From Nautilus pompilius (lineage: Eukaryota; Mollusca; Cephalopoda; Nautilida; Nautilidae), in assembly GCA_018389105.1 (NCBI GenBank), contig JACATO010000591.1, positions 854,501-918,500 of the forward strand: DNA of 64,000 nucleotides, written 5' to 3'. Shown in pieces: positions 16,102 through 46,458 of the stretch. The notes below the pieces were generated by a model. It worked only from the letters and a program-made list of their open reading frames with translations, had not been told where the DNA came from and did not search any database. Position numbers and translations under genes: made by a program. Each line of letters begins with the position of its first letter. The first letter of the stretch is position 1.

Positions 16102-16700
16102 CAGTGCTGAATTTAGACTTGGTGAGGCCTTAAGCTATATAAAGCTTGGAGGCCCCTTGTTAAAAAATTACACTAGGTCTCACAAAAATTGAAAACATGC
16201 CTTTTAATTATTTAATAGCAAGGCATTTACTGATTACATATTTATTATTAGTTGACTTGATTTCTATCATAGATTATAATACAGTATACCCTGGAAACAG
16301 TACTTAAATGTAATTTTTAAAATAATTTTAACATACATTAATATATATACAAAATGCTAACAAAATAAGTAATCAGGACCACTTCTGTTAATATAAGTAA
16401 AAATGAACTTGTTTGCAAAATCAGAAAAATGATATCAGATGCAGCTTAGAACATTTTCTTGATTTCCCAATTCATGAATTGTGTCCTCAGATGGTAGCCA
16501 CGCAGCTGATTGCTTTCTATGCACCTGATGCTAAGTGCAGACAGTTTTTCTTGAGACATGGCTGCTCTCTGTTCATTTTTGATTCTCTTTAGCTGTGAAA
16601 ATGACCTTTCTCCTGAACAATTTGTTACCGTCAGACATAAGAATAGCCGTAATGTTGCTTCCACATTAGACGAATAAAACATAAGACAATTAAACATAAT
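16102..16700 (-). mobile_element. ZMYM-like hAT element, C-terminal stump
   Basis: The terminus CAGTGCTGAATTTAGACTTG at 16102 resembles the hAT family with ends 'CAGTGGCGGATTTAG'. Inside, the minus-strand frame 16697-16446 encodes the hAT dimerisation block (TVTNCSGERSFSQLKRIKNE, then MSQEKLSALSIRCIE). Nothing of the catalytic core or the other terminus is present. Its terminus lies exactly where the mariner relic breaks off, so it probably inserted into the mariner. The expected second 8-bp target copy (ATTGGGCC) was not found downstream. Confidence 0.75.
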
Positions 16701-17902
16701 TACTCATTGTTATTATTATACTTAAATTATGCAATGATTGAATTAACTGAACAAAAATTATAGTATAAAATATAAGGTTATAGCCTCTAGGTTCACAGGT
16801 TTGTTCGTTACTATGATAAACTCGGAAACAGTTTATAGGTAAATAAATTATAGTAAAACACATCATGAATGAAGAGCCTGCCATCCCAAAATTCATGTAA
16901 AATATCCTATATGGATGACAAGTGTTCCATCTTTGGAACACCATTAACTATAATAAACGTTCATATTTTAGATTGTTTTGCTATCTATTCAGACAGCATT
17001 ATAAAAGAAAGCTAAACACTGAATTTAAATAATTTAATTAGTAATATATATATATATCATGTACAACGATATAAAGATAGAGAAGGTTCGTGCTCTCTGT
17101 ATACATCTCTGCCAGACCTATGGTGCTGGGTGTCCCCGATCTGTGAGGCCTGGACCCGGCTGTCGTTGGGAGAGTTTCTGGCGAACGGCGGCTAATTCGC
17201 AACAGTACCTTTCAGCTGAGGTGGCTGCTAGAGGTTATAGAGGATGACACCGGACGGTGGCCATGACTTCCTTCTGGGTTCTGGAACGCGGTTATTGCGA
17301 TTGTCGTGAAGGATCCGGTTTTTCCATCACTCGTAATGATCCGGTCAGGAAATGGATCGTTTTTTGCTTCTTGTGACGAGGTCGTCGTCGTCCATTCAGC
17401 TCGTGAGGCGCCCGACTCTCTCACCTGGCCGAGATGCCGGGAGGCAGTTGCAGCAGCCCTTACGTCGAGCTCTCCACCGATTCCTCGGATCGGCCTCAGC
17501 TGCTGTTTGGAAAATGTCTATTATTTCTTACTGTTCATTATAATTAGATTGTGTAAATGTGCTCGTCGTGGTTCATACAGACGAACCCTCCTCCTGCCGC
17601 CTCCTCCTCCGGGGCTGCAGTGAGAGGGAAGTGAAGCCGCGCACAGCTGCTGGTCGCCATGGCGACGTGAGGTATCCCGACGGACTTGTAATGGGGGGGG
17701 CCAGGACGGCCCTTCATTGACCCGACCGTTTGCCATCCCAGAGGGGCGGCACAACCAAGGAAATACCTAAAGTTACCTGCGTTCATCGGACCACAGAAAA
17801 ATGCCACAAATGCAGTCGTCCACGCATCGATGAACAGCCATTGTGACGAAAATAACCCGTCTCTCGCGGACATTTTTGTGTATCCGTCTCGAACAGGCGA
17901 CG
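16701..17902. other. AT-rich to CpG-rich transition and 5' flank of the VFT gene
   Basis: Up to about 17050 the sequence is AT-rich, ending in a short TA run (17042-17057). From there the composition changes abruptly to CpG-rich. 17100-17902 is presumed 5' flank, promoter and 5' UTR of the gene starting at 17903. No TATA box or clear promoter element was recognised. The start context is CGACGATGG. Confidence 0.35.
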
Positions 17903-20900
17903 ATGGCCGTAGCGGGGTGGACTTTCATGCTGACGGGCGCCACCCTGGCGCTTGGGTGCCTCTCTCTCCGCTACAGGGACTGCGGCCCCGGCCGCCCCGG
18001 CCTGAAGTTCGCGCTCTTCGTGAGCGCCACCCGGCCGCGGCGGTCCTTCGACTGCAAGAAGCTCGACGACAACTCGCTCCAGCTCGTCTCCGCCGTCCAG
18101 TGGGCCGTGGACAGGGTGAACACCCGGGTCGGCAGCCATACCTTCTTCCCCGACGCCAATCTGGGTAAGTCGCTCGTCAGGGGGCTTTACCACCATTACC
18201 ACGTGAGAAATCAGGCCCCACGTCTTCACCATGCGGTCCAACAGCTGCTCGTATCGGCAGAGCCGCCGCCGCCGCGTTCTGGCTAGTGATGGACGCGGTG
18301 CTAGCCTCTACTCCGGGTTCGTATCGGCAGAGCCGCCGCGTTCTGGCTAGTGTTGGCCACGTTAAAGGCGCGGTGCTAGCCTCTACTGCTGGTTCGTATC
18401 GGCAGAGCTGCTGCCGCCGCGTTCTGGCTAGTGATGGACGCGGTGCTAGCCTCTACTCCGGGTTCGTATCGGCAGAGCTGCTGCTGCTGCTGCTGCTGCG
18501 TTCTGGCTAGTGATGGCCACGTTAAAGACGCGGTGCTAGCCTCTACTCCTGGTTCGTATCCGCAGAGCTGCTGCTGCGTTCTGGCTAGTGATGGACGCGG
18601 TGCTAGCCTCTACTCCGGGTTCGTATCGGCAGAGCTGCCGCCGCGTTCTGGCTAGTGATGGCCACGTTAAAGACGCGGTGCTAGCCTCTACTCCGGGTTC
18701 GTATCAGCAGAGCTGCTGCCGCCGCGTTCTGGCTAGTGATGGACGCGGTGCTAGCCTCTACTCCGGGTTCGTATCGGCAGAGCTGCTGCTGCGTTCTGGC
18801 TAGTGTTGGCCACGTTAAAGGCGCGGTGCTAGCCTCTACTCCGGGTTCGTATCGGCAGAGCTGCTGCGTTCTGGCTAGTGATGGCCACGTTAAAGACGCG
18901 GTGCTAGCCTCTACTCCTGGTTCGTATCCGCAGAGCTGCTGCTGCGTTCTGGCTAGTGATGGACGCGGTGCTAGCCTCTACTCCGGGTTCGTATCGGCAG
19001 AGCTGCCGCCGCGTTCTGGCTAGTGATGGCCACGTTAAAGACGCGGTGCTAGCCTCTACTCCGGGTTCGTATCAGCAGAGCTGCTGCCGCCGCGTTCTGG
19101 CTAGTGATGGACGCGGTGCTAGCCTCTACTCCGGGTTCGTATCGGCAGAGCTGCTGCCGCCGCGTTCTGGCTAGTGTTGGCCACGTTAAAGGCGCGGTGC
19201 TAGCCTCTACTCCGGGTTCGTATCGGCAGAGCTGCTGCGTTCTGGCTAGTGATGGCCACGTTAAAGACGCGGTGCTAGCCTCTACTCCTGGTTCGTATCC
19301 GCAGAGCTGCTGCTGCGTTCTGGCTAGTGATGGACGCGGTGCTAGCCTCTACTCCGGGTTCGTATCGGCAGAGCTGCCGCCGCGTTCTGGCTAGTGATGG
19401 CCACGTTAAAGACGCGGTGCTAGCCTCTACTCCGGGTTCGTATCAGCAGAGCTGCTGCCGCCGCGTTCTGGCTAGTGATGGACGCGGTGCTAGCCTCTAC
19501 TCCGGGTTCGTATCGGCAGAGCTGCTGCTGCGTTCTGGCTAGTGTTGGCCACGTTAAAGGCGCGGTGCTAGCCTCTACTCCGGGTTCGTATCGGCAGAGC
19601 TGCTGCGTTCTGGCTAGTGATGGCCACGTTAAAGACGCGGTGCTAGCCTCTACTCCGGGCTCGTATCGGCAGAGCTGCTGCCGCCGCGTTCTGGCTAGTG
19701 ATGGCCACGTTAAAGACGCGGTGCTAGCCTCTACTCCGGGTTCGTATCGGCAGAGCCGCCGCGTTCTGGCTAGTGTCGGCCAGCGTGATCTAAGGACGTT
19801 TTTACTGGAGACGCAAGCAGCATAAATTGAATATAAGTGACAGGTGAGCAGTGGGAGCCTTATAAATCAGCTGCTATTTCAAAATGTCTTCGAAGGGCCG
19901 GCCTATTGTTTTGTTTTATACCATTTGTGATTTATCTGGTGTCAAATAAAATTAAAAAAAAAAACTTTTTAGTAATAATAATTATTTTGGAAGCTCACCC
20001 CTTTAGCCAGAGATGCTCTCTCTCTCTCTCTCTCCAGACTTTGAAGTGTTCGACGACTGTGGAAATCAAACTTACGCGGCCTTTCACGCTTATAACGTTC
20101 TGGGAGATCTGGAGCCAAGATTGCAGCATAACTGCCGACTGTCTAACAGCACGCAGTACGCAGGTAAGCCACCTTTTAATACGGAACACGTGTGACGGGC
20201 TCGTGGTGACAAAACTACCGAGCGGTTCTCGTCTCCTGACCGGTCTTCATCAGGGTTTGGCCAAAGGTCGCTCGTATCAACTTACTTTATATCTTTGACG
20301 TAGTTTGAAAAGCAAAGGAATTTACATTGTCTGATCTTCCAGTTTCGCGTAATTCGGAGGAACAGGTAGAGCACTTGTTTTCCAGTCTTCTCTTTACAGC
20401 TATTGTCGTCGCCAGTGACAGTTCCGTCGCTAAGGCCGTGGTAGAATCCACCCGGTATTTCCCCATACCCGTGTTGAGTCCGACCGCCGCATCCTCAGAA
20501 CTGATCGACTACCCGAACTTCGTGAGAACGACGGTTTCAGACAACGTTCAGGTAAAGGTAAGCGTGTCGTCTTCAGTTCCCTCTCCTCTCAGTTTGTCTT
20601 TGTTCTTAATCAAGAAGCCCCTTTTACCCTTGTAGCGGAGCTAGCCTCTGCGATTGGCCCCTTTTCCTTGAGGGGGCGTAAAAGTTCGCGTGCCTGGGGT
20701 TCCCCCCTCTATTTATTTGCCAAGCGCTTTTTCTAAAGGTGGTGCCATCGGCACGTAAGAAAAAACAACAACAACCCCGTCCCCCCCTTCCCGCGACAAG
20801 AGAAAGTCTGCATCCCAAGAGACTCGCCTCTGGACCCGCTTTTGTTTTTCCAGGCTGTCGTGTCACTGCTGCAGCTCCTCGGATGGACCTACCTGGCCGC

Positions 20901-23900
20901 GGTCCACACAGACGATGAGTACGGTTCCGGGGCGATGTCGATACTGAAGAAGGAAGCGGATAAAGTTGGCATTTGTTTCGACATTGTTGAAAAGATTCCC
21001 ACCAACATCTACACGGACGAGCTGGTGCGGGACCTCATCAAGAGAATCGCCAAGACTTCGACAAAAGCCAGAGGAGGCAGCATCGGTGTTGTCTACTACG
21101 GCCAGCAGTCGGCAGCCGAGCGTATATTCAGCTTAGCCCCGACGAGCGGCGTGGACATGAGTAAAATCCACTGGATTGTCTCGGATGCAGTCGGGGGAGA
21201 TGTCAAAGTGTTCTCCAGCGGGAATAGCAAGTTCAACGGGCTCATCTCTCTCTCCATAGCTGGATTAAACTTATACGATTTTCAGAGCTACTTTTCGGAT
21301 CGGATAGAGAAATACGAAGGCAAAAACAGCTCCAGCAACATTGATTTATGGATAGCGAACTTGTACAAAAATACATATGAACACACTCCTCCCAAACACC
21401 TGTTCGTGCATCTTGGATATGTAACAGCTGTGGTGGATACGGTTTATCTGATCGCAGAAGCTAAGAGGAAACAGTGTATCAAAGATGTCCGGAACTGCTA
21501 CCAGACTTCGATTGACAGCGCGCGATCCTTTCTCCAGGAAATCCTGAAGACGAACCTCAGTTACGACCGAATGGACCACGCTTTCGTCCCCCGCGAGTTC
21601 CTGAGCACCAGGAGGTCCCTTTGGATAGATGGACACCGCAGTGTGGCCTACAGTAGCAGCGCACCCGCTATTTACATCAATCAACTTTGGGAAGGCAGTT
21701 TTACCAATGTAAGTCTACCTCGCGGTTCTGTGACTGGGTCTCTCTCCATCTTTACGGACTCTCCTCAAACTTAAATCAGACGAAGCTGAGATAATTAATA
21801 AATCGCACCAGCTTTAACACACACACAATCGCCGTGAGACAGTTGAGGGTTAACAACTCCAGTATCTTATAAGTTGTCTAAAATAAACAAAAACAAACCG
21901 CTATCAGATTTAGCATATGGCCCTTTATACAAGTCGCACCTGTAACTCCGTAATTACGAGCTCTGAGAGACCCAGCTAAGGTAAGAGACGTTTCACATAC
22001 CTGCTCTTAACTTAACCTACTCTACGTATCAGCTTTATTTCCAAACCTACGTTTCAGTAGACCAGCTGTCGTCTTCATCCTCTATTTAAATTGATGCTCC
22101 GAGCTTTTACTTCACCTAACCAACCAACCTGTATTTTTTCTTTCGATTTCACGTGTGGAAGATACTGCTTTCTCCTGAATACAATTAATACATATACCGA
22201 AGTATTACAATTTGGATGAAACTCATTCATTTAGTAAACTAAGTCCCGACCAATCCGGGCCATCGGCCTCGATAGCTGCGACCGCTGTAACTAAGCCATA
22301 TGTAGGGTCTATCTCCTTAATTTTTTTAGAAATATTTGATGATGCAGAGTTTATATGAAATCTTTGAGAGGGAGGATTCAATGTCTATTAACCGCTTATC
22401 CGAATAAGACGAAAGGTTTTGAGTAGTGACGCAGCCTTGAACTTCTACGTGGCTGCCATCTTCAGTGGTACAGCAACATCCAGTTCTGTCTGCCAGCGCC
22501 TCGAACTCAATTTCCAGTTATTGGGGGTCTTGATGCAACTGATAACTGCTTGGATTCGTGCCTGGAGTTCATCTACACAGTTGGATTTGGTTATGAACCG
22601 ATGCTGTTCTCGTGAGGCCTGGCGGAGCGACTTCCACGGTCGTCTTGAGCAGCTGGAACCGTACTGGCGTCTCTCTCTCGCTCGTAGGTTCCCGGCATGT
22701 GCCCCAAACTTTCATTTCCCACTGGGAACTGACCCCGCTTATTAACCTCCTAACACGAGAAGAAATTAATAAAACTTCGAGTGCGCGGCTTTGTAATACG
22801 ATTTATGTTCTGCAGTTAAGCAGTCATTAGACGTTGAAACTCTCAGCGACTCCAGAAATACCTTGCAGTCTATAGAAAGGAGATGGAAAGTTAGACGTTG
22901 GTTATAATGGTTCTTTTCTGTTTGTTTACCACTCTAAGGTAGGGAAGTTCACCAATGGAAGAGCCCTCTACGTCAATAAGACCGACCTGCGGATGCTTGG
23001 CAGTCAGAAAGATATAGTGAGCGGATCCAGTTTACCACCGAGCGCCTGCGAGAAGACCTGCGATAGTTGCATCGACAGACTGATTAACCCTGTCCTTCAC
23101 GTCCCCGGGGACATTCTGCTGCTGGGCATCTTCTCGCTGCATGACCGCGGAAAGCAGTTTCTGTGCGGCCCGTTGCGTACCGTCTCCACAGACTCTGTCA
23201 CCGCAGAAGCGTTCGTGCACGCTGTTTACGAAGCCAGAAACAGGACGGGTCTGTCCCTGGGCGCCGTCCTCATTGATGACTGTTACAATCCACTCCAAGC
23301 CACTCGTCTACTCAGCGAGTATTTTTCCGGTCACACGACGCTGAGGGATTTTCAGACCAATGCAAATGTTTCGCTGGAGAAGGTCTTCGCCATCTTGGGG
23401 CCTCTCTCGAGCGGGGTAGCTAAGCCCCTTGCTCAGATGTTTACAAACCTGCAGAAACCGATTATTTCTTACGGGGCCTCGTCCCCCGATCTCGATGACA
23501 GGATTTCTTATCCCTATTTTCTCAGAACCGTGCCCAGCGACGTAGAGCAGGTGCGGGCTATTATTGGCATAATTAAAGAAATGAAATGGAATTACGTGGG
23601 ATTCGTCTTCGTCGACAATAACTACGGTCAGAAGGCCAAAGAGTGGTTCGTGCGGAACGCCATGGCGGACGGCATATGCGTGGCCGAGCCCGTCGAGATG
23701 TCGGGCTTGCAGAACGCGTCCGACATGGACACCATCGTGACCACACTCAGGCAGCAGCTGGTCAAAGTGGTCATCTATTTCGGAACCACCACCAGGATCG
23801 GCCAGCTGCTGGCAGCTCTAGAGAGGCACAACATGAGGAACGAGTTCGTGTTCATCGCCAGCGAGACGTGGGGGAAGACGGAGAGCGTGCTGGAAGATGG

Positions 23901-26070
23901 CGGCGGCCTGGTCGTGCCCGGATCGCTTTCCCTGGCCCTCAAGTCCAATTCCGCGGACAGCAGTTTCAAGGAATACCTGGTCAGGACGAATTTCCGCAGC
24001 ACCCCGTTCGCGAAGTTCTGGTCGAGCCGTTTCAGATGCAACCTGAAAGGAAGTTTCCGGAACATTTACGAGGCCGAGTGCCCGGACAGCCTGCGCGTCT
24101 CGGGGGCGGAGGCGCGGGAGTTCGTCTCGGACCAGCGGGTGGTGCACGCCATGAACGCCGTGTACGCTGTAGCCGAGGCGATACGGTCCGCCACCGCCTT
24201 CTGCCGCTTCTCTCCGCAGTTTCCGTGCAGCGCGCTAACCACCGGGAAGTTCGTGGAAATCCTCAAAGGAGTCGAGCTGCGCGAAGGCAATACGAAGTTC
24301 CGCGTCTTCCAGGCCGACGGGAACGGCTACAGCGGGTTCCACGTATACAGCATCCAAAAGAAGAGGTCGAGTCGGGAGTTCGAATACATCAACGTAAGTC
24401 CGCGTTACCAAAATGTAAGTTATCCTAACAAGGTTCCCTCTAAGTTAGCTTTGTTTTCAAGAATCATATCGTCGCCATCTTCTCTCCAGCCCCCAGCTGA
24501 AGGTTTAAAGTGCGTAGACCTGAAGCTGTTCAGAAGCTCTCCTGTCGGGGCGAGGTGTCATCCTTCAGATGCTGCTCTAAACAGGTCGGCAGTAGAATTA
24601 CTGCGGAGTTACCGTTTTCGGCTTGGGGCAGGCAGCCCACAGCACCGGTGCCAGTAGATAAGCGAGAAACTGCCAGCAATGCACATCAGGTCTAAAGCCA
24701 TTTATCCATTTAATTAATCACTTCCGGGAATATCGTTATCTAATCGCCCAATAGGATATTTTTATTTCCCGAATGATCAAGTGACCCTTGAAGAGCTGGG
24801 ATTGTATAAAGTCCACTCTGAGGTCGGATGTAACCAAAAATTATACCTGTCTCCATCTTCTGCATGTGTTAATTCTCTAGCAGTACAAGTTCTCTGCTCC
24901 CATCTAGATTCTTAAAACCAACTCACGCGCTCCAATCGCAGTCTTTTCGCGATTGAATTTGTCTACTTTTTTTATAAATAGCACCTTCATCTATGGCTGG
25001 GGGAGTGTGGGTTCAATCGGCAGGTTGTAGGCAGATCAAACGAGTAGCGACTTTATACAATACCAAATGACAAAGGGAGAAGAAAAACACGAACTTAGTA
25101 GGCCACAGTCACCAAGAGACAACAGGAACCGGATACTACTTATATTTCTTGAGTGCATTAAGACAACAATCAGAACAGGTTCTGAAACACTTCGGTTTTC
25201 TTTTACCGGGCACAGACAGGAGGAAATGTTATATTTTACTAGATTGATTTTGTGGAATTCGTTCAGAACATTAACTGTGACGCATTTAAGAGTATCTGGC
25301 AGGTGTTTGGATTTATCTTTAATATTCCGTACAGCTTGAATACCCCCCTCTCCTCTCTCTCTCTCTCCTCATCTCTCTCTCCTCATCTCTCTCTCCTCAT
25401 CTCTCATCTCTCTCCTCATCTCTCTCCTCATCTCATCTCCTCTCTCTCCTCATCTCTCTCTCCTCATCTTCATCTCTCTCCTCATCTTCATCTCTCTCTC
25501 TCTCTCCCCTCATCTCATCTCTCTCTCTCTCATCTCATCTCTCTCTCTCTCATTCCTGTCAGTTACGCGCAAGTGATTCTTTATTTACCTAAATATGATC
25601 GGCTACTGCATCACCAGCCACCCAAAACTCCTGGCGATGAGACTGAATTAATTACCTGTACACTTAGTCGAACTGTAACGCGCCTGACATTCTCTTGTAT
25701 ACAGCCACTGACCTGGGGCCGAAGAGCAGAGAGGATTTACTGATGTCTCTTTAGACGGTGGTCAGATAAAGTCAGCGAAAGCGGAGCGGTTATGACAAGT
25801 TCCATTTTATCTGTTTTAGAAAGTTGCACGAACGTTTGTTTAAATGACCGTATCTGACTCGCTACCGGCTCCTTTCACCGATGCCCGTCTTGGGAGCTGG
25901 GAGGGGCAGACCTGAAGGAGGATGCTGTTTGATAAGGAAGCAAGCCAGCAGAGCACGAGCTCACCTAAGCTGTTTAGATTTCAATTGCTACAAAGAACTA
26001 ACTTTTTTATCGGTCTGAGAGGATCTTCACTTTTACCTGTCTTATAATAATGATAATGATAATGATAATA

Positions 26071-26102
<32 letters not shown>

Positions 26103-29100
26103 GATAATAATAATAATGTGTAAGATTACTTCGAGAGTTTATGCTGCTTTCTTAGCTCGTCTTCGATTCGTTAAAGAAAATACTTTTTAACTCTCCTTGT
26201 ATCAGTTACCTCCCTTATACAGCCCCCTCCTCCCCTCCCAGCCTCACAGTCGTGTGGTTTGTCGTTACAACAGCCCCTATGCTGAGTAATGCTGATTTGA
26301 AGACTAGAACTTTATTGAAGTTGTGTGTGTATTCATCCGTCTATATTTTTTGGAAATGTGAGAGATGCAACAATTTTGCCAGAAGATATGTACAGACATC
26401 TCCCCCCCATCTCACAAGAACTGCCGACTACATCCTTTCCATCGATGTTTCTCTCGGCAGTTTGTAAGTATCGCTGAGCCGACCGCGTTAGTTTCTCAAC
26501 CGGTCTTTAAGTATTTTGTTTAACTTATCGTATTTCTGGCGTGAAGCCCGATCAACAAGTCAACTGAGTTATGTGACACGTTCCAAACACAGGTCCCTTT
26601 AAGCTGGGTCAAGGAGAAAAGGTTTTCCCGTGTGTCGTGGCGTGGAAGTCCGTTATCGCCGAAATGATTAGTCGTCCACGGCCAGCCTGAGTTTACGAGC
26701 GGCACAGCTTTAGTGTTCTTTCTCGTTGCTCTTCCTCTTCCCGCCGTCGTACAGCAGCCGCCCCATCGTGTACATTTCCTACCTGATAGTTTATTCACAG
26801 ACTGATTAGTTCATCTTCTGCGCGGACTACAGGTGTATATCGAGCATCAGCTGGAGCATTTTCCAGATGGTTTTGCAGTGTCTCATCTTCTGATTCAACA
26901 CGAAAATTAAACGGGCTTTGAGAATTTCCAGTTTTGCTTTCTTTACCCCGTAAAACAGCTTCATGTGTACTACATCAAAATAGAACGGTCGACCATATTG
27001 GATACAATACTTTCCGGTTGTCTGACGTCCCACTCGGAACCATTGTCCAATGTGTATTCTGTTTTTTTCCTGATGGCCAAAAATTAGTTACATACACCTG
27101 TGCATTTATGTGCCAAGCGGTAAGAATGTGACTTCCTGCGCCTCCATGAAAGCCTCTATATCTTTTAAAAGGTGGCGTGGTGAAGGGTCCCTCTGTACCT
27201 TAATGAACTGGCAGTGGGAAAATTGTACAATATTTACTAATTGCTCCTTTTAGGTGTGGGAAATAACTAAGCCACGGTGACTATTGATTTAGCTATACAC
27301 GACGGAAACTGTGCTCTGTATCTTTTCTGAAATCACAATTCTCAAGAGACGAGTCACCTTTTACAGGTAGATTGTTTAAGATTGTCCGTTACTTTTATGA
27401 ACAAATAAACATGATACAATCCAATATCATCATGGTCATCATTACAATAATTGGATTGATCACGTGTAACTGCTGCTGGATCTCGACCAGAGATAGCGCA
27501 GAGTTCTTGCCGCCGCCTTTGATGTTTCTAATTTCTGTTTTGCTAAAAACTTTTTAATATCCATTTTTGAAAAAATGAGGATTAACAAAATATCTAAAAC
27601 AAATACAACTGTAAACCATACTTGATTTGACTTAACTGGGGCATTCAGCTATTGGATAGGAAATTCTTTGCCAATTTTTATAGCCTAGTGGGATCTGAAA
27701 GTCGTTCCTAGTGTTTAGTTCAATTAACCAATGAGAAGTGCAATTAGGGTCACTAACTAACTAATCAAAAGGCAGTTATACTAACCGATTGGTGACCCCT
27801 TCATTTCTTAATTAACCTATCAGTTTGTTTGTCACAACCAGAGAGACGGTTGTTCAGCTATTTACTTTGAATACTCGCGCTCTGTCAGTGCTTATATTGC
27901 TACTCTCTTCCCGGCCTGTGACCTTTTGACCTTCGGCCGGGTGCCGTCAGACTCGTTATTTCTTGTCCGATTCACCACGCACCAGTGAACAAGACGAATC
28001 GGGCAACAACAAAAAAAGAGATGTTTACTATGAAGACCAGAATTTCGGTGACCCTAACTGCTGACTTTTCAGGTGCTTATATCCGGAAATGATAGAGCCT
28101 CGCCAGTGAACGCCTGTTTTAAAAAACACCTGCAGGGCCGCGGTAGACGTGGGTGGGGCGTCCGCTGTACGAAGTCGTCCAGTCGTCTTCACGACAAAGG
28201 GTGAATGCCAACTTTTTTGTTTTTTATTTTTCATTTGAATTTTAATTTATATCATCATAAAGCGCAAGCATATTTAGGTGATTTGTTTTATAGGGAGAGT
28301 TTATAGCAAGTTGACTTCACCAAAGATTGTAATAGATCTAGTAGATGTTTTAATAGCTGAAGACTGTTGGCAGATGCTTAAGTCGTGGTGTAGACGAATT
28401 CTATTATGTTAGGTTGTAAGTACAAGAGCTGAGACCGCCGTGACGTACCCCATGTGTGGTCGATAGTGTTCTCTAGGGCTGAGACCGCCGTGACGTACCC
28501 CATGTGTGGTCGATAGTGTTCTCTAGGGCTGAGACCGCCGTGACGTACCCCATGTGTGGTCGATAGTGTTCTCTAGGGCTGAGACCGCCGTGACGTACCC
28601 CATGTGTGGTCGATAGTGTTCTCTAGGGCTGAGACCGCCGTGACGTACCCCATGTGGGTCGATAGTGTTCTCTAGGGCTGAGACCGCCGTGACGTACCCC
28701 ATGTGTGGTCGATAGTGTTCTCTAGGGCTGAGACCGCCGTGACGTACCCCATGTGTGGTCGATAGTGTTCTCTAGGGCTGAGACCGCTTAGACGTACCTC
28801 ATGTGTGGTCGATAGTGTTCTCTATGGCTGAGACCGTTTAGACGTACCCAATGTGTGGTCGATAGTGTTCTCTAGGGCTGAGACCGCTTAGACGTACCTC
28901 ATGTGTGGTCGATAGTGTTCTCTAGGGCTGAGACCGCTTAGACGTACCTCATGTGTGGTCGATAGTGTTCTCTAGGGCTGAGACCGCCGTGACGTACCCC
29001 ATGTGTGGTCGATAGTGTTCTCTAGGGCTGAGACCGCTGTGACGTACCCCATGTGTGGTCGATAGTGTTCTCTAGGGCTGAGACCGCCGTGACGTACCCC

Positions 29101-32100
29101 ATGTGTGGTCGATAGTGTTCTCTAGGGCTGAGACCGCCGTGACGTACCCCATGTGTGGTCGATAGTGTTCTCTAGGGCTGAGACCGCCGTGACGTACCCC
29201 ATGTGTGGTCGATAGTGTTCTCTAGGGCTGAGACCGCCGTGACGTACTCCATGTGTGGTCGATAGTTGTTCTCTAGGGCTGAGACCGCCGTGACGTACCC
29301 CATGTGTGGTCGATAGTGTTCTCTAGGGCTGAGACCGCCGTGACGTACCCCATGTGTGGTCGATAGTGTTCTCTAGGGCTGAGACCGCCGTGACGTACCC
29401 CATGTGTGGTCGATAGTGTTCTCTAGGGCTGAGACCGCCGTGACGTACCCCATGTGTGGTCGATAGTGTTCTCTAGGGCTGAGACCGCCGTGACGTACCC
29501 CATGTGTGGTCGATAGTGTTCTCTAGGGCTGAGACCGCCGTGACGTACCCCATGTGTGGTCGATAGTGTTCTCTAGGGCTGAGACCGCCGTGACTTACCC
29601 CATGTGTGGTCGATAGTGTTCTCTAGGGCTGAGACCGCCGTGACGTACCCCATGTGTGGTCGATAGTGTTCTCTAGGGCTGAGACCGCCGTGACGTACCC
29701 CATGTGTGGTCGATAGTGTTCTCTAGGGCTGAGACCGCTTAGACGTACCTCATGTGTGGTCGATAGTGTTCTCTAGGGCTGAGACCGTTTAGACGTACCC
29801 AATGTGTGGTCGATAGTGTTCTCTAGGGCTGAGACCGTTTAGACGTACCCAATGTGTGGTCGTTAGTGTTCTCTAGGGCTGAAACCGTTTAGACGTACCC
29901 AATGTGTGGTCGATAGTGTTCTCTAGGGCTGAAACCGCCGTGACGTACCCCATGTGTGGTCGATAGTGTTCTCTAGGGCTGAGACCGCCGTGACGTAACC
30001 CCATGTTTGGTCGATCTATTTTCTCTAGGGCTGAGACCGCCGTGACGTACCCCATGTGTGGTCGATAGTGTTCTCTAGGGCTGAGACCGCCGTGACGTAC
30101 CCCATGTGTGGTCGATTTGTTCTCTAGGGCTGAGACCGCGCGTGACGTACCCCATGTGTGGTCGATAGTTGTTCTCTAGGGCTGAGACCGCCGTGACGTA
30201 ACCCCATGTGTGGTCGATAGTGTTCTCTAGGGCTGAAACCGCCGTGACGTACCCCATGTGTGGTCGATAGTGTTCTCTAGGGCTGAGACCGCGTGACGTA
30301 CCCCATGTGTGGTCGATAGTGTTCTCTAGGGCTGAGACCGCCGTGACGTTCCCATGTGTGGTCGATAGTGTTCTCTAGGGCTGAGACCGCCGTGACGTAC
30401 CCCATGTGTGGTCGATAGTGTTCTCTAGGGCTGAGCCGCCGTGACGTACCCCATGTGTGGTCGATAGTGTTCTCTAGGGCTAGACCGCCGTGACGTACCC
30501 CATGTGTGGTCGATAGTGTTCTCTAGGGCTGAGACCGCCGTGACGTACCCCATGTGTGGTCGATAGTGTTCTCTAGGGCTGAGACCGCCGTGACGTTACC
30601 CCATGTGTGGTCGATAGTGTTCTCTAGGGCTGAGACCGTTTAGACGTACCCAATGTTGTGGTTCGATAGTGTTCTCTAGGGCTAAGACCGCTAGACGTAC
30701 CTCATGTGTGGTCGATAGTGTTCTCTCGGGCTGAGACCGCTTAGAACGTACCTATGTGTTGGTCGATAGTGTTCTCTAGGGCTGAGACCGCCGTGACGTA
30801 CCCCATGTGTGGTCCGATAGTGTTCTCTAGGGCTGAGACCGCCGTGACGTACCCCTGTGTTGTTCGATAGTTTTCTCTAGGGCTGAGACCGCCGTGACGT
30901 ACCCCATGTGTGGTCGATAGTGTTTCTAGGGCTGAGACCGCCGTGACGTACCCCATGTGTGGTCGATAGTGTTCTCTAGGGCTGAGACCGCCGTGACGTA
31001 CCCCATGTGTGGTCGATAGTGTTCTCTAGGGCTGAGACCGCCGTGACGTACCCCATGTGTGGTCGATAGTGTTCTCTAGGGCTGAGAACCGCCGTGACGT
31101 ACCCCATGTGTGGTCGATAGTGTTCTCTAGGGCTGAGACCGCTTAGACGTAACCTCATGTTGTGGTCGATAGTGTTCTCTAGGGCTGAGACCGTTTAGAC
31201 GTACCCAATGTGTGGTCGATAGTATTCTCTAGGGCTGAAACCGTTTAGACGTACCCAATGTGTGGTCGATAGTGTTCTCTAGGGCTGAAACCGCCGTGAC
31301 GTACCCCATGTGTGGTCGATAGTGTTCTCTAGGGCTGAGACCGCCGTGACGTACCCCATGTGTGGTCGATAGTGTTCTCTAGGGCTGAGACCGCCGTGAC
31401 GTACCCCATGTGTGGTCGATAGTGTTCTCTAGGGCTGAGACCGCCGTGACGTACCCCATGTGTGGTCGATAGTGTTCTCTAGGGCTGAGACCGCCGTGAC
31501 GTACCCCATGTGTGGTCGATAGTGTTCTCTAGGGCTGAGACCGCCGTGACGTACCCCATGTGTGGTCGATAGTGTTCTCTAGGGCTGAGACCGCCGTGAC
31601 GTACCCCATGTGTGGTCGATAGTGTTCTCTAGGGCTGAGACCGCCGTGACGTACCCCATGTGTGGTCGATAGTGTTCTCTAGGGCTGAGACCGTTTAGAC
31701 GTACCCCATGTGTGGTCGATAGTGTTCTCTAGGGCTGAGACCGCTTAGACGTACCTCATGTGTGGTCGATAGTGTTCTCTATGGCTGAGACCGTTTAGAC
31801 GTACCCAATGTGTGGTCGATAGTGTTCTGTAGGGCTAAGACCGCTTAGACGTACCTCATGTGTGGTCGATAGTGTTCTCTAGGGCTGAGACCCCCGTGAC
31901 GTACCTCATGTGTGGTCGATAGTGTTCTCTGGGGCTGAGACCGCCGTGACGTACCCCATGTGTGGTCGATAGTGTTCTCTAGGGCTGAGACCGCTGTGAC
32001 GTACCCCATGTGTGGTCGATAGTGTTCTCTAGGGCTGAGACCGTTTAGACGTACCCAATGTGTGGTCGATAGTGTTCTCTAGGGCTGAAACCGTTTAGAC

Positions 32101-35100
32101 GTACCCAATGTGTGGTCGATAGTGTTCTCTAGGGCTGAAACCGTTTAGACGTACCCAATGTGTGGTCGATAGTGTTCGCTAGGGCTGAGACCGTTTAGAC
32201 GTACCCAATGTGTGGTCGATAGTGTTCTCTAGGGCTGAGACCGTTTAGACGTACCCCATGTGTGGTCGATAGTGTTCTCTAGGGCTGAGACCGCCGTGAC
32301 GTACCCCATGTGTGGTCGATAGTGTTCTCTAGGGCTGAAACCGTTTAGACGTACCCAATGTGTGGTCGATAGTGTTCTCTAGGGCTGAGACCGTTTAGAC
32401 GTACCCAATGTGTGGTCGATAGTGTTCTCTAGGGCTGAGACCGTTTAGACGTACCCAATGTGTGGTCGATAGTGTTCTCTAGGGCTGAGACCGTTTAGAC
32501 GTACCCAATGTGTGGTCGATAGTGTTCTCTAGGGCTGAGACCACTTAGACGTACCTCATGTGTGGTCGATAGTGTTCTCTAGGGCTGAGACCGCCGTGAC
32601 GTACCCCATGTGTGGTCGATAGTGTTCTCTAGGGTTGATACTGCCGTGACGTACCCCATGTGTGGTCGATAGTATTCTCTAGGGCTGAGACCGTTTAGAC
32701 GTATCCAATGTGTGGTCGATAGTGTTCTCTAGGGCTGAGACCGTTTAGACGTACCCCATGTGTGGTCGATAGTGTTCTCTAAGGCTGAGACCGCCGTGAC
32801 GTACCCCATGTGTGGTCGATAGTGTTCTCTAGGGCTGAGACCGTTTAGACGTACCCCATGTGGGTCGATAGTGTTCTCTAGGCTGAGACCGCCGTGACGT
32901 ACCCCATGTGTGGTCGATAGTGTTCTCTAGGGCTGAGACCGCCGTGACGTACCCCATGTGTGGTCGATAGTGTTCTCTAGGGCTGAGACCGCCGTGACGT
33001 ACCCCATGTGTGGTCGATAGTGTTCTCTAGGGCTGAGACCGCCGTGACGTACCCCATGTGTGGTCGATAGTGTTCTCTAGGGCTGAGACCGCCGTGACGT
33101 ACCCCATGTGTGGTCGATAGTGTTCTCTAGGGCTGAGACCGCCGTGACGTACCCCATGTGTGGTCGATAGTGTTCTCTAGGGCTGAGACCGTTTAGACGT
33201 ACCCCATGTGTGGTCGATAGTGTTCTCTAGGGCTGAGGACCGCTTAGACGTACCTCATGTGTGGTCGATAGTGTTCTCTATGGCTGAGACCGTTTAGACG
33301 TACCCAATGTGTGGTCGATAGTGTTCTGTAGGGCTAAGACCGCTTAGACGTACCTCATGTGTGGTCGATAGTGTTCTCTAGGGCTGAGACCCCCGTGACG
33401 TACCTCATGTGTGGTCGATAGTGTTCTCTGGGCTGAGACCGCCGTGACGTACCCCATGTGTGGTCGATAGTGTTCTCTAGGGCTGAGACCGCTGTGACGT
33501 ACCCCATGTGTGGTCGATAGTGTTCTCTAGGGCTGAGACCGTTTAGACGTACCCAATGTGTGGTCGATAGTGTTCTCTAGGGCTGAAACCGTTTAGACGT
33601 ACCCAATGTGTGGTCGATAGTGTTCTCTAGGGCTGAAACCGTTTAGACGTACCCAATGTGTGGTCGATAGTGTTCGCTAGGGCTGAGACCGTTTAGACGT
33701 ACCCAATGTGTGGTCGATAGTGTTCTCTAGGGCTGAGACCGTTTAGACGTACCCCATGTGTGGTCGATAGTGTTCTCTAGGGCTGAGACCGCCGTGACGT
33801 ACCCCATGTGTGGTCGATAGTGTTCTCTAGGGCTGAAACCGTTTAGACGTACCCAATGTGTGTCGATAGTGTTCTCTAGGGCTGAGACCGTTTAGACGTA
33901 CCCAATGTGTGGTCGATAGTGTTCTCTAGGGCTGAGACCGTTTAGACGTACCCAATGTGTGGTCGATAGTGTTCTCTAGGGCTGAGACCGTTTAGACGTA
34001 CCCAATGTGTGGTCGATAGTGTTCTCTAGGGCTGAGACCACTTAGACGTACCTCATGTGTGGTCGATAGTGTTCTCTAGGGCTGAGACCGCCGTGACGTA
34101 CCCCATGTGTGGTCGATAGTGTTCTCTAGGGTTGATACTGCCGTGACGTACCCCATGTGTGGTCGATAGTATTCTCTAGGGCTGAGACCGTTTAGACGTA
34201 TCCAATGTGTGGTCGATAGTGTTCTCTAGGGCTGAGACCGTTTAGACGTACCCCATGTGTGGTCGATAGTGTTCTCTAAGGCTGAGACCGCCGTGACGTA
34301 CCCCATGTGTGGTCGATAGTGTTCTCTAGGGCTGAGACCGTTTAGACGTACCCAATGTGTGGTCGATAGTGTTCTCTAGGGCTGAGACCGTTTAGACGTA
34401 CCAATGTGTGTGGTCGATAGTGTTCTCTAGGGCTGAGACCGTTAGACGTACCCAATGTGTGGTCGATAGTGTTCTCTAGGCTGAGACCGTTTAGACGTAC
34501 CCAATGTGTGGTCGATAGTGTTCTCTAGGGCTGAGACTGAGACAGTTTAGACGTACCCAATGTGTGGTCGATAGTGTTCTCTAGGGCTGAGACCGTTTAG
34601 ACGTACCCCATGTGTGGTCGATAGTGTTCTCTAGGGCTGAGACCGTTTAGACGTACCTCATGTGTGGTCGATAGTGTTCTCTAGGGCTGAGACCGCCGTG
34701 ACGTACCTCATGTGTGGTCGATAGTGTTCTCTAGGGCTGAGACCGCCGTGACGTACCCCATGTGTGGTCGATAGTGTTCTCTAGGGTTGATACCGCCGTG
34801 ACGTACCCCATGTGTGGTCGATAGTATTCTCTAGGGCTGAGACCGTTTAGACGTACCCCATGTGTGGTCGATAGTGTTCTCTAGGGCTGAGACCGTTTAG
34901 ACGTACCCCATGTGTGGTCGATAGTGTTCTCTAGGGCTGAGACCGTTTAGACGTACCCCATGTGTGGTCGATAGTGTTCTCTAGGGCTGAGACCGCCGTG
35001 ACGTACCCCATGTGTGGTCGATAGTGTTCTCTAGGGCTGAAACCGTTTAGACGTACCCAATGTGTGGTCGATAGTGTTCTCTAGGGCTGAGACCGTTTAG

Positions 35101-38100
35101 ACGTACCCAATGTGTGGTCGATAGTGTTCTCTAGGGCTGAGACCGTTTAGACGTACCCAATGTGTGGTCGATAGTGTTCTCTAGGGCTGAGACCACTTAG
35201 ACGTACCTCATGTGTGGTCGATAGTGTTCTCTAGGGCTGAGACCGCCGTGACGTACCCTATGTGTGGTCGATAGTGTTCTCTAGGGTTGATACCGCCGTG
35301 ACGTACCCCATGTGTGGTCGATAGTGTTCTCTAGGGCTGAGACCGCCGTGACGTACCCCATGTGTGGTCGATAGTGTTCTCTAGGGCTGAAACCGTTTAG
35401 ACGTACCCAATGTGTGGTCGATAGTGTTCTCTAGGGCTGAGACCGTTTAGACGTACCCAATGTGTGGTCGATAGTGTTCTCTAGGGCTGAGACCGTTTAG
35501 ACGTACCCAATGTGTGGTCGATAGTGTTCTCTAGGGCTGAGACCGTTAGACGTACCCAATGTGTGGTCGATAGTGTTCTCTAGGGCTGAGACCACTTAGA
35601 CGTACCTCATGTGTGGTCGATAGTGTTCTCTAGGGCTGAGACCGCCGTGACGTACCCCATGTGTGGTCGATAGTGTTCTCTAGGGTTGATACTGCCGTGA
35701 CGTACCCCATGTGTGGTCGATAGTATTCTCTAGGCTGAGACCGTTTAGACGTATCCAATGTGTGGTCGATAGTGTTCTCTAGGGCTGAGACCGTTTAGAC
35801 GTACCCCATGTGTGGTCGATAGTGTTCTCTAAGGCTGAGACCGCCGTGACGTACCCCATGTGTGGTCGATAGTGTTCTCTAGGGCTGAGACCGTTTAGAC
35901 GTACCCAATGTGTGGTCGATAGTGTTCTCTAGGGCTGAGACCGTTTAGACGTACCCAATGTGTGGTCGATAGTGTTCTCTAGGGCTGAGACCGTTTAGAC
36001 GTACCCAATGTGTGGTCGATAGTGTTCTCTAGGGCTGAGACAGTTTAGACGTACCCAATGTGTGGTCGATAGTGTTCTCTAGGGCTGAGACCGTTTAGAC
36101 GTACCCAATGTGTGGTCGATAGTGTTCTCTAGGGCTGAGACCGTTTAGACGTACCTCATGTGTGGTCGATAGTGTTCTCTAGGGCTGAGACCGCCGTGAC
36201 GTACCTCATGTGTGGTCGATAGTGTTCTCTAGGGCTGAGACCGCCGTGACGTACCCCATGTGTGGTCGATAGTGTTCTCTAGGGTTGATACCGCCGTGAC
36301 GTACCCCATGTGTGGTCGATAGTATTCTCTAGGGCTGAGACCGTTTAGACGTATCCAATGTGTGGTCGATAGTGTTCTCTAGGGCTGAGACCGTTTAGAC
36401 GTACCCCATGTGTGGTCGATAGTGTTCTCTAGGGCTGAGACCGTTTAGACGTACCCCATGTGTGGTCGATAGTGTTCTCTAGGGCTGAGACCGCCGTGAC
36501 GTACCCCATGTGTGGTCGATAGTGTTCTCTAGGGCTGAAACCGTTTAGACGTACCCAATGTGTGGTCGATAGTGTTCTCTAGGGCTGAGACCGTTTAGAC
36601 GTACCCAATGTGTGGTCGATAGTGTTCTCTAGGGCTGAGACCGTTTAGACGTACCCAATGTGTGGTCGATAGTGTTCTCTAGGGCTGAGACCACTTAGAC
36701 GTACCTCATGTGTGGTCGATAGTGTTCTCTAGGGCTGAGACCGCCGTGACGTACCCTATGTGTGGTCGATAGTGTTCTCTAGGGTTGATACCGCCGTGAC
36801 GTACCCCATGTGTGGTCGATAGTGTTCTCTAGGGCTGAGACCGCCGTGACGTACCCCATGTGTGGTCGATAGTGTTCTCTAGGGCTGAGACCGCCGTCAC
36901 GTATCCCATGTGTGGTCGATAGTGTTCTCTAAAGAGAAGAGTGAAGAATCCTTAATTTATAGAGTACGTACATAATTTATTACATTAAATGCATTAGAAG
37001 CAGAAGCTCATTGAATGTTAAAATATAAAACAAAAGTTGTTTCTCACATATGATTCACATCTGTTACAATCAGTAGCCAGGGTTGCAGTTACTCGCCTCT
37101 TCAGTTGTTCTAGGTTACTTTTCTACCATTGTTGATGGCGCATGTTCCACGTTTGGTTCCTTCCTTTTAAATGTTAGCGAATGTTTTGCCTCTGCACCCG
37201 GTCTTTATTTCTGATTGGAAACCCTTTCCTGCATCCCATTTCTTGTAAATTTCAACATATTTCAGGTTGGATCGTACAGTCGGGGCCAGGGTCTGCACCT
37301 GAAAAAAGAATTTATCAAATTCTACGACAAGCGATACCAAGAGATCTCCAGGGTGGCCGGAATCTGCAACAGCAAGTGTGACTGCGATCTCGGGACCACT
37401 CCCGCTACCAGGACTTCCCAGGGGGGTCGGACTGAACTCGGCTCAGTAAAGGACATCCTTTCAGCTGTTCTCGTCCTGGTCGCCCTCATCTTCCTCGCCA
37501 TTGCCGGCCTCCTCAGTCTCCTCGTCATCCGAAGATGTCTGAAGAAAAGTGAGTGTGGTGATGTGTAACGTGGTACCTTAAAAGATGCGCAGAGAACGTC
37601 GTGTCTTTAAAGGGAAACGCTCTTTTCCTTTTGAGGTGTCTGGGGACGTAGATGGTACAAGGGTGGGGGCTTGGTTTATTTCAAACGAACCATTTCCAAT
37701 ACGCGCTAGTGGGTCAGAGAGGGTTTTTTTTTTAAAGGGGTTAATAGGCACAGCGAGAACGCGAAGCGATGTTTGTCTCAAGATCGAACGCGAAGACCTC
37801 AAACGATCATTGGCAGTCGATTGTTTTCTGTTGATCAGGGAGTTCGAGTACTGGTTCTGGATACTCTCTTATCTCTATTTAAAGTTTAATATTACCGAAG
37901 GGTGGCTATACCGGGGCTATTATTACGTTACAGCAGGATGGGTACATCGGGGTTCAGTATTACGTGCTATACTCTTACTCTGGGATTACTTGTATGTAAC
38001 TTTACCTCTGTACTGGATAAAACTGCTAGCAAACTTTTAAAAAGGGGGTTTCTGTTGTAAATGAGGTCATCAAAATAAAATGTATGCAACACGAAGTCTA

Positions 38101-39013
38101 CTTTGAGCCTTTGTTTTGCGGTTATTATGGCCATCAAATAGACTTCACGCAGATGGATGTCCGTGTTCCATCCATCTATAATAAATGAACTCTATGAAGT
38201 TGGTCAGTTACACTTCACAAACCGTTTCACAATTTTTTTCGCAGGATAAAAAGTCAATTAATCAAGGAAAATTGATTGGAATGATCGATTGTTAGTCCTG
38301 TAAATGGCTCGTTGTACCAGACGGCTGAAACTTTAAATGAAAGTTATTGATTGATTCTCATTAATAATTTTAAAGAGATATAAAAAATCGATTGAATCGA
38401 TAGCAAGACTTAAGATTGAAGTCCTTTTTCCAATTTTGATATTACAGAACAAGTTCCAAAAATGCAGCAAAATGGCGGTATTCTTAAAGTGAAAACTTCC
38501 GGCTTGTCGCCAGCTTCGCCCGGGAGAGGCACGGGTACTTCCGGCTTGTCGCCAGCTTCGCCCGGGGGAGTTCTGAGTACGTCGAACCTCCGGGGGGAAT
38601 CGGTAGAATTCGTAATGTCTAGCCACCCTGATGTGCACAGTTCTGACGACGGGTACGTGACTACCTATAATCTACGACCGACCAGCGGCATCAGTCTGCC
38701 GAACACCTCTAGCGGCTCTCACCGTGTAATCAAAGACTACAGGAGAACCCAGTCTGAAGCATTGTTTCCCGCATCCTCAGCGTTTGACAACAGTGGATTT
38801 ACTGATGTTGACATTGTCCCTGTTTCACCGACCAGCTCAAGAGCCACCGGTACCTACGAAGTGGTGAATCACTGTTGGAGTGACAAGTATTCGCAATCAT
38901 CAGAAACCGATCCTAAAGAGTTAATCAACAACACGGGAAGCGCTGGAGAGAACGAAACCCAGAACGGCGAGTTGATGAGGTCGTCGCTACCGTCCAATGT
39001 AATATTTTGCTAA
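17903..39013 (+). CDS. Single-pass receptor with two tandem class-C VFT domains
   Basis: Seven exons join in frame: 17903-18164, 20038-20163, 20400-20551, 20854-21708, 22939-24393, 37266-37548, 38448-39013 (phases 1,1,0,0,0,1), giving 1232 residues. Residues 1-22 look like a signal peptide. VFT1 (about 33-465) and VFT2 (about 520-950) match the amino-acid-binding fold of mGluR-type receptors. VFT2 opens like a mature class C receptor (VPGDILLLGIFSLHD) and contains ILGPLSSGVAK, SYGASSPDLDDR and RTVPSD. VFT1 contains ASDSSVAK and TTVSDNVQ. Each VFT is followed by VG[KS][FY] and a short Cys motif (C502/506/509; C984/988/990) in place of the nine-Cys domain. One helix (1014-1038) follows, then a Ser/Pro-rich tail with two copies of SGLSPASPG and Tyr sites (YNL, YEVV). 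No 7TM or kinase domain is present. Domain calls are firm; ligand and signalling are unknown. Intron retention at 37549 would give a tail of about 10 residues. Confidence 0.8.
18239..19780 (+). repeat. Minisatellite with CTG/CCG tracts in VFT intron 1
   Basis: Tandem units of roughly 70-80 bp, each carrying GCGGTGCTAGCCTCTACTCC, then GGTTCGTATCGGCAGAGC, a variable CTG/CCG triplet run, and GCGTTCTGGCTAGTG. Two unit types exist: type A has GATGGACGCGG; type B has a longer GATGGCCACGTTAAAGACGCGG. They form a higher-order repeat of about 370 bp (for example 18589/18957/19328 and 18737/19105/19476). Triplet runs vary from one to about six repeats. The open frames across the array are repeat artefacts. 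Confidence 0.95.
25347..25557 (+). repeat. (CT)n / CTCAT-rich microsatellite
   Basis: Irregular array of TCTCTC and CTCATCTCTC blocks in intron 5 of the VFT gene. The open frame across it is a by-product of the repeat. Confidence 0.95.
26044..26117 (+). repeat. (AAT/GAT)n trinucleotide microsatellite
   Basis: Run of ATAATG and AATAAT trinucleotide blocks in intron 5 of the VFT gene. Confidence 0.95.
28427..36931 (+). repeat. 8.5 kb minisatellite, 50-bp unit, about 170 copies
   Basis: Head-to-tail 50-bp unit: GCTGAGACCGCCGTGACGTA then CCCCATGTGTGGTCGATAGT and GTTCTCTAGG. Three linked haplotypes recur: CCGTGACGTACCCC, TTTAGACGTACCCA and CTTAGACGTACCTC. A higher-order period of about 1.5 kb (30 units) is visible: the rare variants GTTCTGTAGGGCTAAG and GAGACCCCCGTGACG recur in the same order near 31825-31900 and 33325-33400, and a GGTTGATACTGCCG block recurs near 32634, 34132 and 35684. 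Units between about 29990 and 31170 carry many single-base indels. The array lies inside intron 5 of the VFT gene. Confidence 0.98.
36932..37265 (+). other. Intron 5 right end with splice acceptor
   Basis: Unique sequence between the minisatellite and the transmembrane exon. It ends in a pyrimidine-containing tract and ATATTTCAG at 37257-37265, the acceptor for the exon at 37266. Confidence 0.6.
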
Positions 39014-45096: not shown

Positions 45097-46458
45097 TCAG
45101 TGCTGAGCACAGTAAAACCTCAACTGAAAGCTGTCTCGGCTATCTGATCTCTCTTGGGAACTGTCACTGCTGGCCGACCGTTTGTCTCGACTTTCAGAGC
45201 TGTCACTGCTGTCACTGCTGGCCGACCGATTGTCTCGACTTTCAGAGCTGTCACTGCTGTCACTGCTGTCACTGCTGGCCGACCGTTTGTCTCGACTTTC
45301 AGAGCTGTCACTGCTGTCACTGCTGGCCGACCGATTGTCTCGACTTTCAGAGCTGTCACTGCTGTCACTGCTGGCAGACCGTTTGTCTCGACTTTCAGAG
45401 CTGTCACTGCTGTCACTGCTGTCACTGCTGGCCGACTGTTTGTCTCGACTTTCAGAGCTGTCACTGCTGTCACTGCTGTCACTGTTGGCCGACCGTTTGT
45501 CTCGACTTTCAGAGCTGTCACTGCTGTCACTGCTGTCCGACCGTTTGTCTCGACTTTCAGAGCTATCACTGCTGTCACTGCTGGCCGATCGTTTGTCTCG
45601 ACTTTCAGAGCTGTCACTGATGTCACTGCTGTCACTGCTGGCCGACCGTTTGTCTCGACTTTCAGAGCTGTCACTGCTGTCGCTGCTGTCACTGCTGGCC
45701 GACCGATTGTCTCGACTTTCAGAGCTGTCACTGCTGTCACTGCTGGCCGACCGTTTGTCTCGACTTTCAGAGCTGTCACTGCTGTCACTGCTGTCACTGT
45801 TGGCCGACCGTTTGTCTCGACTTTCAGAGCTGTCACTGCTGTCACTGCTGTCCGACCGTTTGTCTCGACTTTCAGAGCTGTCACTGCTGTCACTGCTGTC
45901 CGACCGTTTGTCTCGACTTTCAGAGCTGTCACTGCTGTCACTGCTGGCCGGCCGTTTGTCTCGACTTTCAGAGCTGTCACTGCTGTCACTGCTGGCCGAT
46001 CGTTTGTCTCGACTTTCAGAGCTGTCACTGATGTCACTGCTGTCACTGCTGGCCGACCGTTTGTCTCGACTTTCAGAGCTATCACTGCTGTCACTGCTGG
46101 CCGATCGTTTGTCTCGACTTTCAGAGCTGTCACTGCTGTCACTGCTGTCACTGCTGGCCGACCGTTTGTCTCGACTTTCAGAGCTGTCACTGCTGTCACT
46201 GCTGTCACTGCTGGCCGACCGTTTGTCTCGACTTTCAGAGCTGTCACTGCTGTCACTGCTGTCACTGTTGGCCGATCGTTTGTTTCGACTTTCAGAGCTG
46301 TCACTGCTGGTTGAACGTTTTATTAAATTTGCAGATCTGTTACAGTTGCTAGATTTTCCCTCTGAACTGTGACGGTCATTTACTACTTCAATGTTTCCCT
46401 GACTGTTACCGTTCATTAACTGGTTTTCCAATATATCTGTACAGTTTTTATGGCTCTG
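45097..46458 (-). CDS. Ser/Asp-rich repeat protein with furin-type sites, last exon
   Basis: The minus-strand open frame runs from a splice acceptor to TGA at 45097-45099. The acceptor is a tandem TTAG/CAG (exon start 46458 or 46455, both in phase) after a T-rich tract. About 50 unique residues (for example [15 protein letters not shown]) come first, then 21 repeats of 16 or 19 residues: [19 protein letters not shown] or the shorter [16 protein letters not shown]. The C-terminus is [11 protein letters not shown]. Seventeen repeats end in RDKR (R-x-K-R, furin consensus), three in RDNR and one in RDKQ. S-x-E and S-D-S-S motifs suit secretory-pathway or CK2 phosphorylation. This suggests a cleaved, phospho-acidic peptide precursor, or a biomineral/adhesive-type SD protein. 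No signal peptide is visible because earlier exons were not found. Long frames also stay open on the other strand and in another frame, so coding status is not certain. Confidence 0.5.

Follow-up and report, generated by a model that had tools for sequence, protein, structure and literature searches.

A predicted single-pass receptor with two tandem Venus flytrap domains in Nautilus pompilius and its multi-flytrap relatives

Class C receptors are described as having a single Venus flytrap domain (VFT) in each chain and acting in dimers. The natriuretic clearance receptor NPR-C has one ANF domain, a single helix, a short tail and no enzyme, and it clears natriuretic peptides. Venus kinase receptors (VKRs) combine one class C-like VFT, a single helix and a tyrosine kinase (accessible part of PMC3703292). 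A limited search of the open-access literature, including the accessible parts of PMC9138782, PMC3703292 and PMC6307864, found no description of animal receptors with tandem VFTs. Here we describe a gene predicted in a 64-kb stretch of the Nautilus pompilius genome (the window; contig C568, positions 854501-918500, in an assembly of 727.6 Mb and 2558 contigs). As is well supported by the sequence, the product of this window gene would be a type-I membrane protein in which two class C-type VFTs, each with a three-cysteine linker behind it, precede one membrane helix and a 194-residue tail. Gene coordinates below are positions within the window, names such as C568 and C875 denote contigs of the same genome, and the VFTs of a gene are numbered V1, V2 and so on in N-to-C order.

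The predicted gene is located on the plus strand (17903-39013) and comprises seven exons in a single frame, uninterrupted across six GT-AG introns of phases 1, 1, 0, 0, 0 and 1 (Table 1). A previous sequence-only reading of the locus had proposed these exons and introns and a product of 1232 residues. The exons could be joined as proposed, the product being 1232 amino acids long when exon 3 ends at 20551, with one minor correction. The donor at 20557 (AAG/GTAAGC) agrees with the consensus in 8 of 9 letters and that at 20551 (CAG/GTAAAG) in 7 of 9. Use of the former gives a protein of 1234 residues, removes a gap of two residues against mGlu5 and yields VSDNVQVKAVVSLLQLLGW, equal in length to PSDAQQARAMVDIVKRYNW of mGlu5. 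Because of the better consensus fit and the gap-free alignment, donor 20557 is the preferred one. The start ATG, the first of its open frame, is flanked by A at -3 and by G at +4. When a near-identical second copy of exon 5 was sought in the genome, the sole match was the window's own place.

Pfam detects ANF_receptor twice in the predicted protein (E 1.9e-76 for the whole protein) and in exons 4 and 5 taken separately, as well as the related Peripla_BP_6 over the same part (E 3.7e-20); a match to K1-lyase_C is below its cut-off (E 0.16). The same scan gave no match to 7tm_3 or to a kinase, and no match of any kind in exons 6 and 7. Among solved structures, VFT2 is nearest in sequence to mGlu5 (E 7.7e-39; 27.4% identity over 361 aligned residues) and VFT1 to T1R3 (E 3.9e-16). 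Apart from the 'GIC' cysteine described below, the cysteines expected for an mGluR-type VFT are, judged by eye, also present in VFT2, five of them in shared columns and two more. A single prominent membrane helix is predicted from hydropathy, the 19-residue means reaching 3.14 within residues 1007-1043 of the 1232-residue model; it is placed at about residues 1015-1040 of the 1234-residue model. The only other mean above 1.6 is 1.69, inside VFT1. In these respects, i.e., two class C-type ligand-binding lobes in one chain, one helix, and neither a seven-transmembrane (7TM) part nor a kinase, the sequence-only reading was borne out. Since VFT2 is homologous to mGlu5 and the exon layout recurs at five other loci, the predicted gene is not due to chance.

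The nine-cysteine profile NCD3G has no match at the window gene at E up to 1, three-cysteine linkers being found instead; a sub-threshold match is located on the same contig at 1126541, some 230 kb from the gene. The linker after VFT1 may be read as a reduced cysteine-rich domain. The tail contains five tyrosines (Y1116, Y1120, Y1144, Y1183 and Y1194), two of which lie in DDGYVTTY, and also the motif YEVV, which is of the YxxPhi type. In the tail-coding stretch at about 38497-38570 the sequence TSGLSPASPG is duplicated with near-identical DNA, perhaps a recent repeat within a coding exon.

In the whole genome at least 75 places match ANF_receptor, and such places come in tandem around six loci: C568 (the window gene), C875, C2044, C943, C651 and C2307. 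Two VFTs, a stalk and one helix are found at C875 and C2044, as in the window gene. A class C 7TM exon accompanies three VFTs at C943 (103.8-96.9 kb, minus strand; Pfam 7tm_3 E 2.3e-32) and five VFTs at both C651 (939-964 kb) and C2307 (2695-2674 kb, minus strand; Pfam 7tm_3 E 3.1e-30). Given two further loci of the same layout and three VFT-rich loci with 7TM exons, the window gene is, as judged from sequence, one branch of a tandem-VFT family in the class C lineage, with three members of the 2xVFT+1TM kind, one of 3xVFT+7TM and two of 5xVFT+7TM. The claim of the sequence-only reading that the architecture matches none of the families it named stands; the gene is, however, no one-off, as there are five more tandem-VFT loci. 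Perhaps the 7TM genes with three or five VFTs are an even greater surprise than the window gene. Only partial models of the paralogues were obtained, with some VFT1 exons missing. The exon for the V3-V4 linker was sought and not found at C651, and its counterpart was found at C2307. The tails of C875 and C2044 were likewise sought and not found. In C568 and C875 alike, the exon with the membrane helix runs to a phase-1 donor directly past the basic residues. In C2044 the open frame has only eight residues from the basic cluster on, unless splicing occurs at a weak donor. Beside the five-VFT gene of C651 there is, at C651:979146-982548, a gene with one VFT, a short three-cysteine stalk and a 7TM part, the VFT of which has lost pocket signature residues described below.

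The six tandem loci have several marks in common. All six contain a phase-0 intron in VFT1, after which the tryptophan of 'LGW' (or a similar motif) is the 11th codon of the exon. The ordinary receptors at C1642, C662 and C1299 have no intron at that place, since their VFTs sit in one open frame. Later VFTs are mostly contained in one exon between phase-0 splice sites and usually start with [VIAL]G. Exceptions are V4 of C651 and C2307, which start without a linker (at C2307 the linker has an exon of its own), and V2 of C875, which begins with MA past a phase-0 acceptor and is broken internally where a good donor lies (AAG/GTAAGA at 969958), probably by one more intron. At least three cysteines are present in each of the 18 linkers and stalks compared; 17 fit the pattern C-x(2,6)-C-x(1,2)-C and the remaining one has x3. 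Both linkers of the window gene have three cysteines, two linkers of C943 hold a fourth, and a 19th linker, from C2307, also fits the pattern. NCD3G was found at ordinary class C loci and at none of the six tandem loci. The cysteine of the 'GIC' motif is present in all 22 VFTs compared, including three of ordinary class C receptors.

The whole-genome search with 7tm_3 at E up to 0.001 gave 28 places, none of them on contig C568. A skipped downstream 7TM exon, which the sequence-only reading had named beforehand as a finding that would speak against it, was thus searched for across the contig and did not appear, and the profile check that it had suggested for intron 5 was negative for both ANF_receptor and 7tm_3 (Table 1). 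A 7TM exon hidden in intron 5 or downstream was accordingly rejected; 8.5 kb of that intron, or two thirds of it, is minisatellite (28428-36931; 170 copies of 50 bp with 94% matches). At C875 and C2044 the ending is the same and the distance from the last VFT exon to the stalk exon is much shorter than in the window gene, which makes an assembly gap an unlikely cause of the missing 7TM part. That two adjoining one-VFT genes were joined by mistake is hardly credible, and two separate genes were rejected on three grounds: exon 5 begins with the final strand of VFT1 and the linker rather than a signal peptide; in all six tandem loci the donor behind V1 and the acceptor ahead of the V2 linker are of phase 0; and the V1s tend to cluster with the V1s of other genes.

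This clustering was seen in a tree of lobe 2 with 22 rows, in which five V1s were included and that of C943 was left out. The V1s prefer each other over the V2 of their own gene, with moderate support. In this tree the five V1s form one group (94/95) and the V2s of the three single-helix genes another (81/84), the latter group also holding in the full-length tree (82/91). C651 and C2307 pair at V1 (96/82), V3 (97/95), V4 (96/87) and V5 (100/99); their V2s are not resolved in the lobe-2 tree and pair in the full-length one (91/91). On the trees and the shared VFT1 intron taken together, it can be suggested with moderate confidence that the gene duplications took place after the tandem layout had arisen.

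Pocket positions are given in mGlu1 numbering and were placed via the aligned residues of mGlu5. The five-residue amino-acid signature (S165, S/T188, D208, Y236 and E at 318) is kept in V2 of C568, C875, C2044, C651 and C2307, i.e., in five of the six V2 units and in all three single-helix genes. R78 is also kept in V2 of the three single-helix genes, and K409 is replaced by R in the window gene and by W in C875 and C2044. As for the VFTs beyond V2 in the 7TM genes, V5 of C651 and V4 of C2307 keep all five residues; one or more are lost in V3 and V4 of C651, V3 and V5 of C2307, V3 of C943 and the one-VFT neighbour at C651. VFT1 of the window gene keeps S165, D208, Y236 and D318. In class IV mGluRs the loss of R78 and K409 has been taken to hamper glutamate binding while the contacts to the amino-acid backbone are retained (accessible part of PMC6307864). 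Based on this role and on the residues kept or lost, the ligand of VFT2 is probably an amino acid and may be acidic, and that of VFT1 is perhaps another amino acid, not glutamate.

Several observations weigh against parts of this picture. As to ligand binding, all five signature residues are lost in V2 of C943, Y236 and D318 are missing from V1 of C2044, and VFT1 of the window gene has A for T188, D for R78 and Y for K409. As to the age of the tandem layout, the removal of four long rows lowers the support of the V1 group to 77/92 and leaves C568_V2 no longer grouped with the other two single-helix V2s with support, and in the full-length tree C568_V1 is weakly placed by ordinary mGluRs (51/41). 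Forcing V1 and V2 of the window gene to be sisters is worse by 10.4 log units with a p-AU of 0.10, so that a recent internal duplication is not rejected. On C938 the end of a partial VFT exon falls close to the profile position where exon 3 of the window gene stops, so that the shared VFT1 intron could predate the tandem family; in a 30-kb search around the partial VFT1-like exons at C938:1031466-1034171 one such exon and no second VFT were found. As to the gene model, the acceptor of exon 6 is weak, with 10 pyrimidines in 17 positions, and a genome search with the stalk and tail as query returned the window's own two places and one match at E 2.68, with no similar tail.

We consider it rather probable that the protein is an amino-acid-binding ectodomain on one helix whose role is that of a ligand-binding partner subunit, forming dimers either among its own copies or together with the multi-VFT 7TM relatives. 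A partner is the most likely role because the protein is devoid of a G-protein-coupling part, and it is further preferred because the plan of the ectodomain is common to the single-helix and the 7TM genes and the tail has no similar sequence elsewhere in the genome. VFT2 would bind a free amino acid in the manner of CaSR and mGluRs, with a second one possibly bound by VFT1. The cysteine-rich domain of mGluRs is joined to lobe 2 by a bridge between one of its cysteines and the GIC cysteine. Similarly, one cysteine of each linker would pair with the conserved GIC cysteine of the VFT ahead of it and the other two would form an internal pair, thereby tying lobe 2 of VFT1 to VFT2 and lobe 2 of VFT2 to the stalk. 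Closure of VFT1 could then be passed through the linker to VFT2, and the dimers would form via the VFTs.

The nearest alternative, which we hold to be unlikely, is a ligand trap or clearance receptor that captures amino acids at the cell surface, to take them away or buffer them, without signalling of its own. The lack of both a catalytic and a G-protein part would suit such a role, as would YEVV, if it acts as YxxPhi motifs do, and the early stop of the C2044 frame, according to which the family may need no tail; the 194-residue tail is, however, far longer than that of NPR-C, and a serial pair of VFTs is unnecessary for a sink. Distinctly unlikely, too, is stand-alone signalling, in which VFT closure would move the two helices of a dimer and the Ser/Tyr-rich tail would recruit kinases or adaptors. 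VKRs do link a VFT via one helix to a signalling part (accessible part of PMC3703292), and the five tail tyrosines, with two in DDGYVTTY, are in line with it, but the tail contains no domain, resembles no other tail in the genome and has no counterpart found at the sister loci C875 and C2044. A very improbable reading is that of a former multi-VFT 7TM receptor which has lost its 7TM exon and is becoming a pseudogene. The branches of C568_V1 and C568_V2 are long and the big introns are filled with minisatellites, as decay would have it; against this, 1234 codons are free of stops, the six introns are intact, VFT2 retains its signature residues, and the 2xVFT+1TM layout occurs at two diverged loci as well.

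Table 1. Predicted exons and other features of the window gene (positions within the 64-kb window; cysteines in the numbering of the 1234-residue model).
Feature	Position	Strand	Content
Exon 1	17903..18164	+	Start codon, hydrophobic N-terminus that resembles a signal peptide in hydropathy only, first part of VFT1
Intron 1	18165..20037	+	Holds a GC-rich minisatellite at 18489-19782, periods 75/148/368 bp
Exon 2	20038..20163	+	VFT1 lobe 1; phase 1-1, GT-AG
Exon 3	20400..20557	+	VFT1 lobe 1 to hinge; ANF_receptor match here; alternative end 20551
Exon 4	20854..21708	+	VFT1 lobe 2; ANF_receptor E 4.9e-16; phase-0 acceptor at the same codon in six tandem loci
Exon 5	22939..24393	+	VFT1 last strand, three-cysteine linker, VFT2 minus last strand; phase 0-0; ANF_receptor E 1.2e-43
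Linker after VFT1	22939..23097 (in exon 5)	+	VGKFTNG..., C504, C508, C511
Intron 5	24394..37265	+	12.9 kb, swollen by 50-bp minisatellite; no VFT or 7TM match inside
Exon 6	37266..37548	+	VFT2 last strand, three-cysteine stalk (C986, C990, C992), membrane helix (about 37455-37529), stop-transfer RRCLKKK
Exon 7	38448..39013	+	Cytoplasmic tail (194 residues from RRCLKKK), stop codon; nothing in Pfam at E up to 1

Elsewhere in the window there are remains of transposases with CENP-B/DDE_1, Tc5-type and hAT dimerisation regions (542-1414, 4921-5262, 9006-9584, 16449-16703 and 57243-58583), and at 45057-46458 long open frames occur in several frames, repeat-derived and probably a minisatellite. The assembly also contains 117 matches to COX1 (e.g., C112:262789, and on many other contigs). 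Most of them have in-frame TGA, pointing to probably many nuclear mitochondrial copies. One such COX1 fragment has an open frame under the invertebrate mitochondrial code (table 5), and its sequence looks lophotrochozoan.

Whether this lineage evolved receptors in which the flytrap was multiplied by duplication of phase-0 exons, giving single-pass receptors with two VFTs and class C G-protein-coupled receptors (GPCRs) with three or five, is in our view evenly balanced; a single such receptor could read several amino acids at once as a combinatorial or coincidence detector, with the single-pass members as ligand-binding partners of the seven-helix ones. If this is true, class C receptors would no longer be bound to a single flytrap each. 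Copying a VFT unit that sits on a phase-0 exon leaves the frame unbroken and would be an easy way to arrive at such receptors. The tandem-VFT family, with its chains of two, three or five VFTs on one or seven helices, would let one ask how closure spreads from VFT to VFT and whether a single receptor combines several ligands.

The window gene shares the VFT1 intron place, the phase-0 VFT exons and the short cysteine linkers with C943, C651 and C2307, and in the lobe-2 tree its V1 tends to group with those of the latter two, but these genes carry three or five VFTs and 7tm_3. Compared with the described receptors, the architecture is unlike that of class C GPCRs, VKRs and natriuretic clearance receptors, as the sequence-only reading had claimed. 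The protein resembles NPR-C in having an ANF_receptor ectodomain, one helix and no enzyme, and differs from it in having two domains of the mGluR/CaSR kind and in the length of its tail. With VKRs it shares a class C-like VFT on one helix, but there is a second VFT and no kinase. The ANF_receptor VFT of a class C GPCR is present, whereas 7tm_3 and the nine-cysteine NCD3G were not found. In comparison with both mGluRs and CaSR/T1R receptors, the window gene has two VFTs, three-cysteine linkers in place of the nine-cysteine domain and one helix in place of seven. Nevertheless, it is like the mGluRs in the VFT fold (by homology), most of the VFT2 pocket residues, the GIC cysteine and the VG.W/Y strand followed by cysteines, and like CaSR in the SSGV of VFT2 at the place of S165 and the E at that of D318, while the best match of VFT1 among solved structures is a taste receptor of the same group, T1R3.

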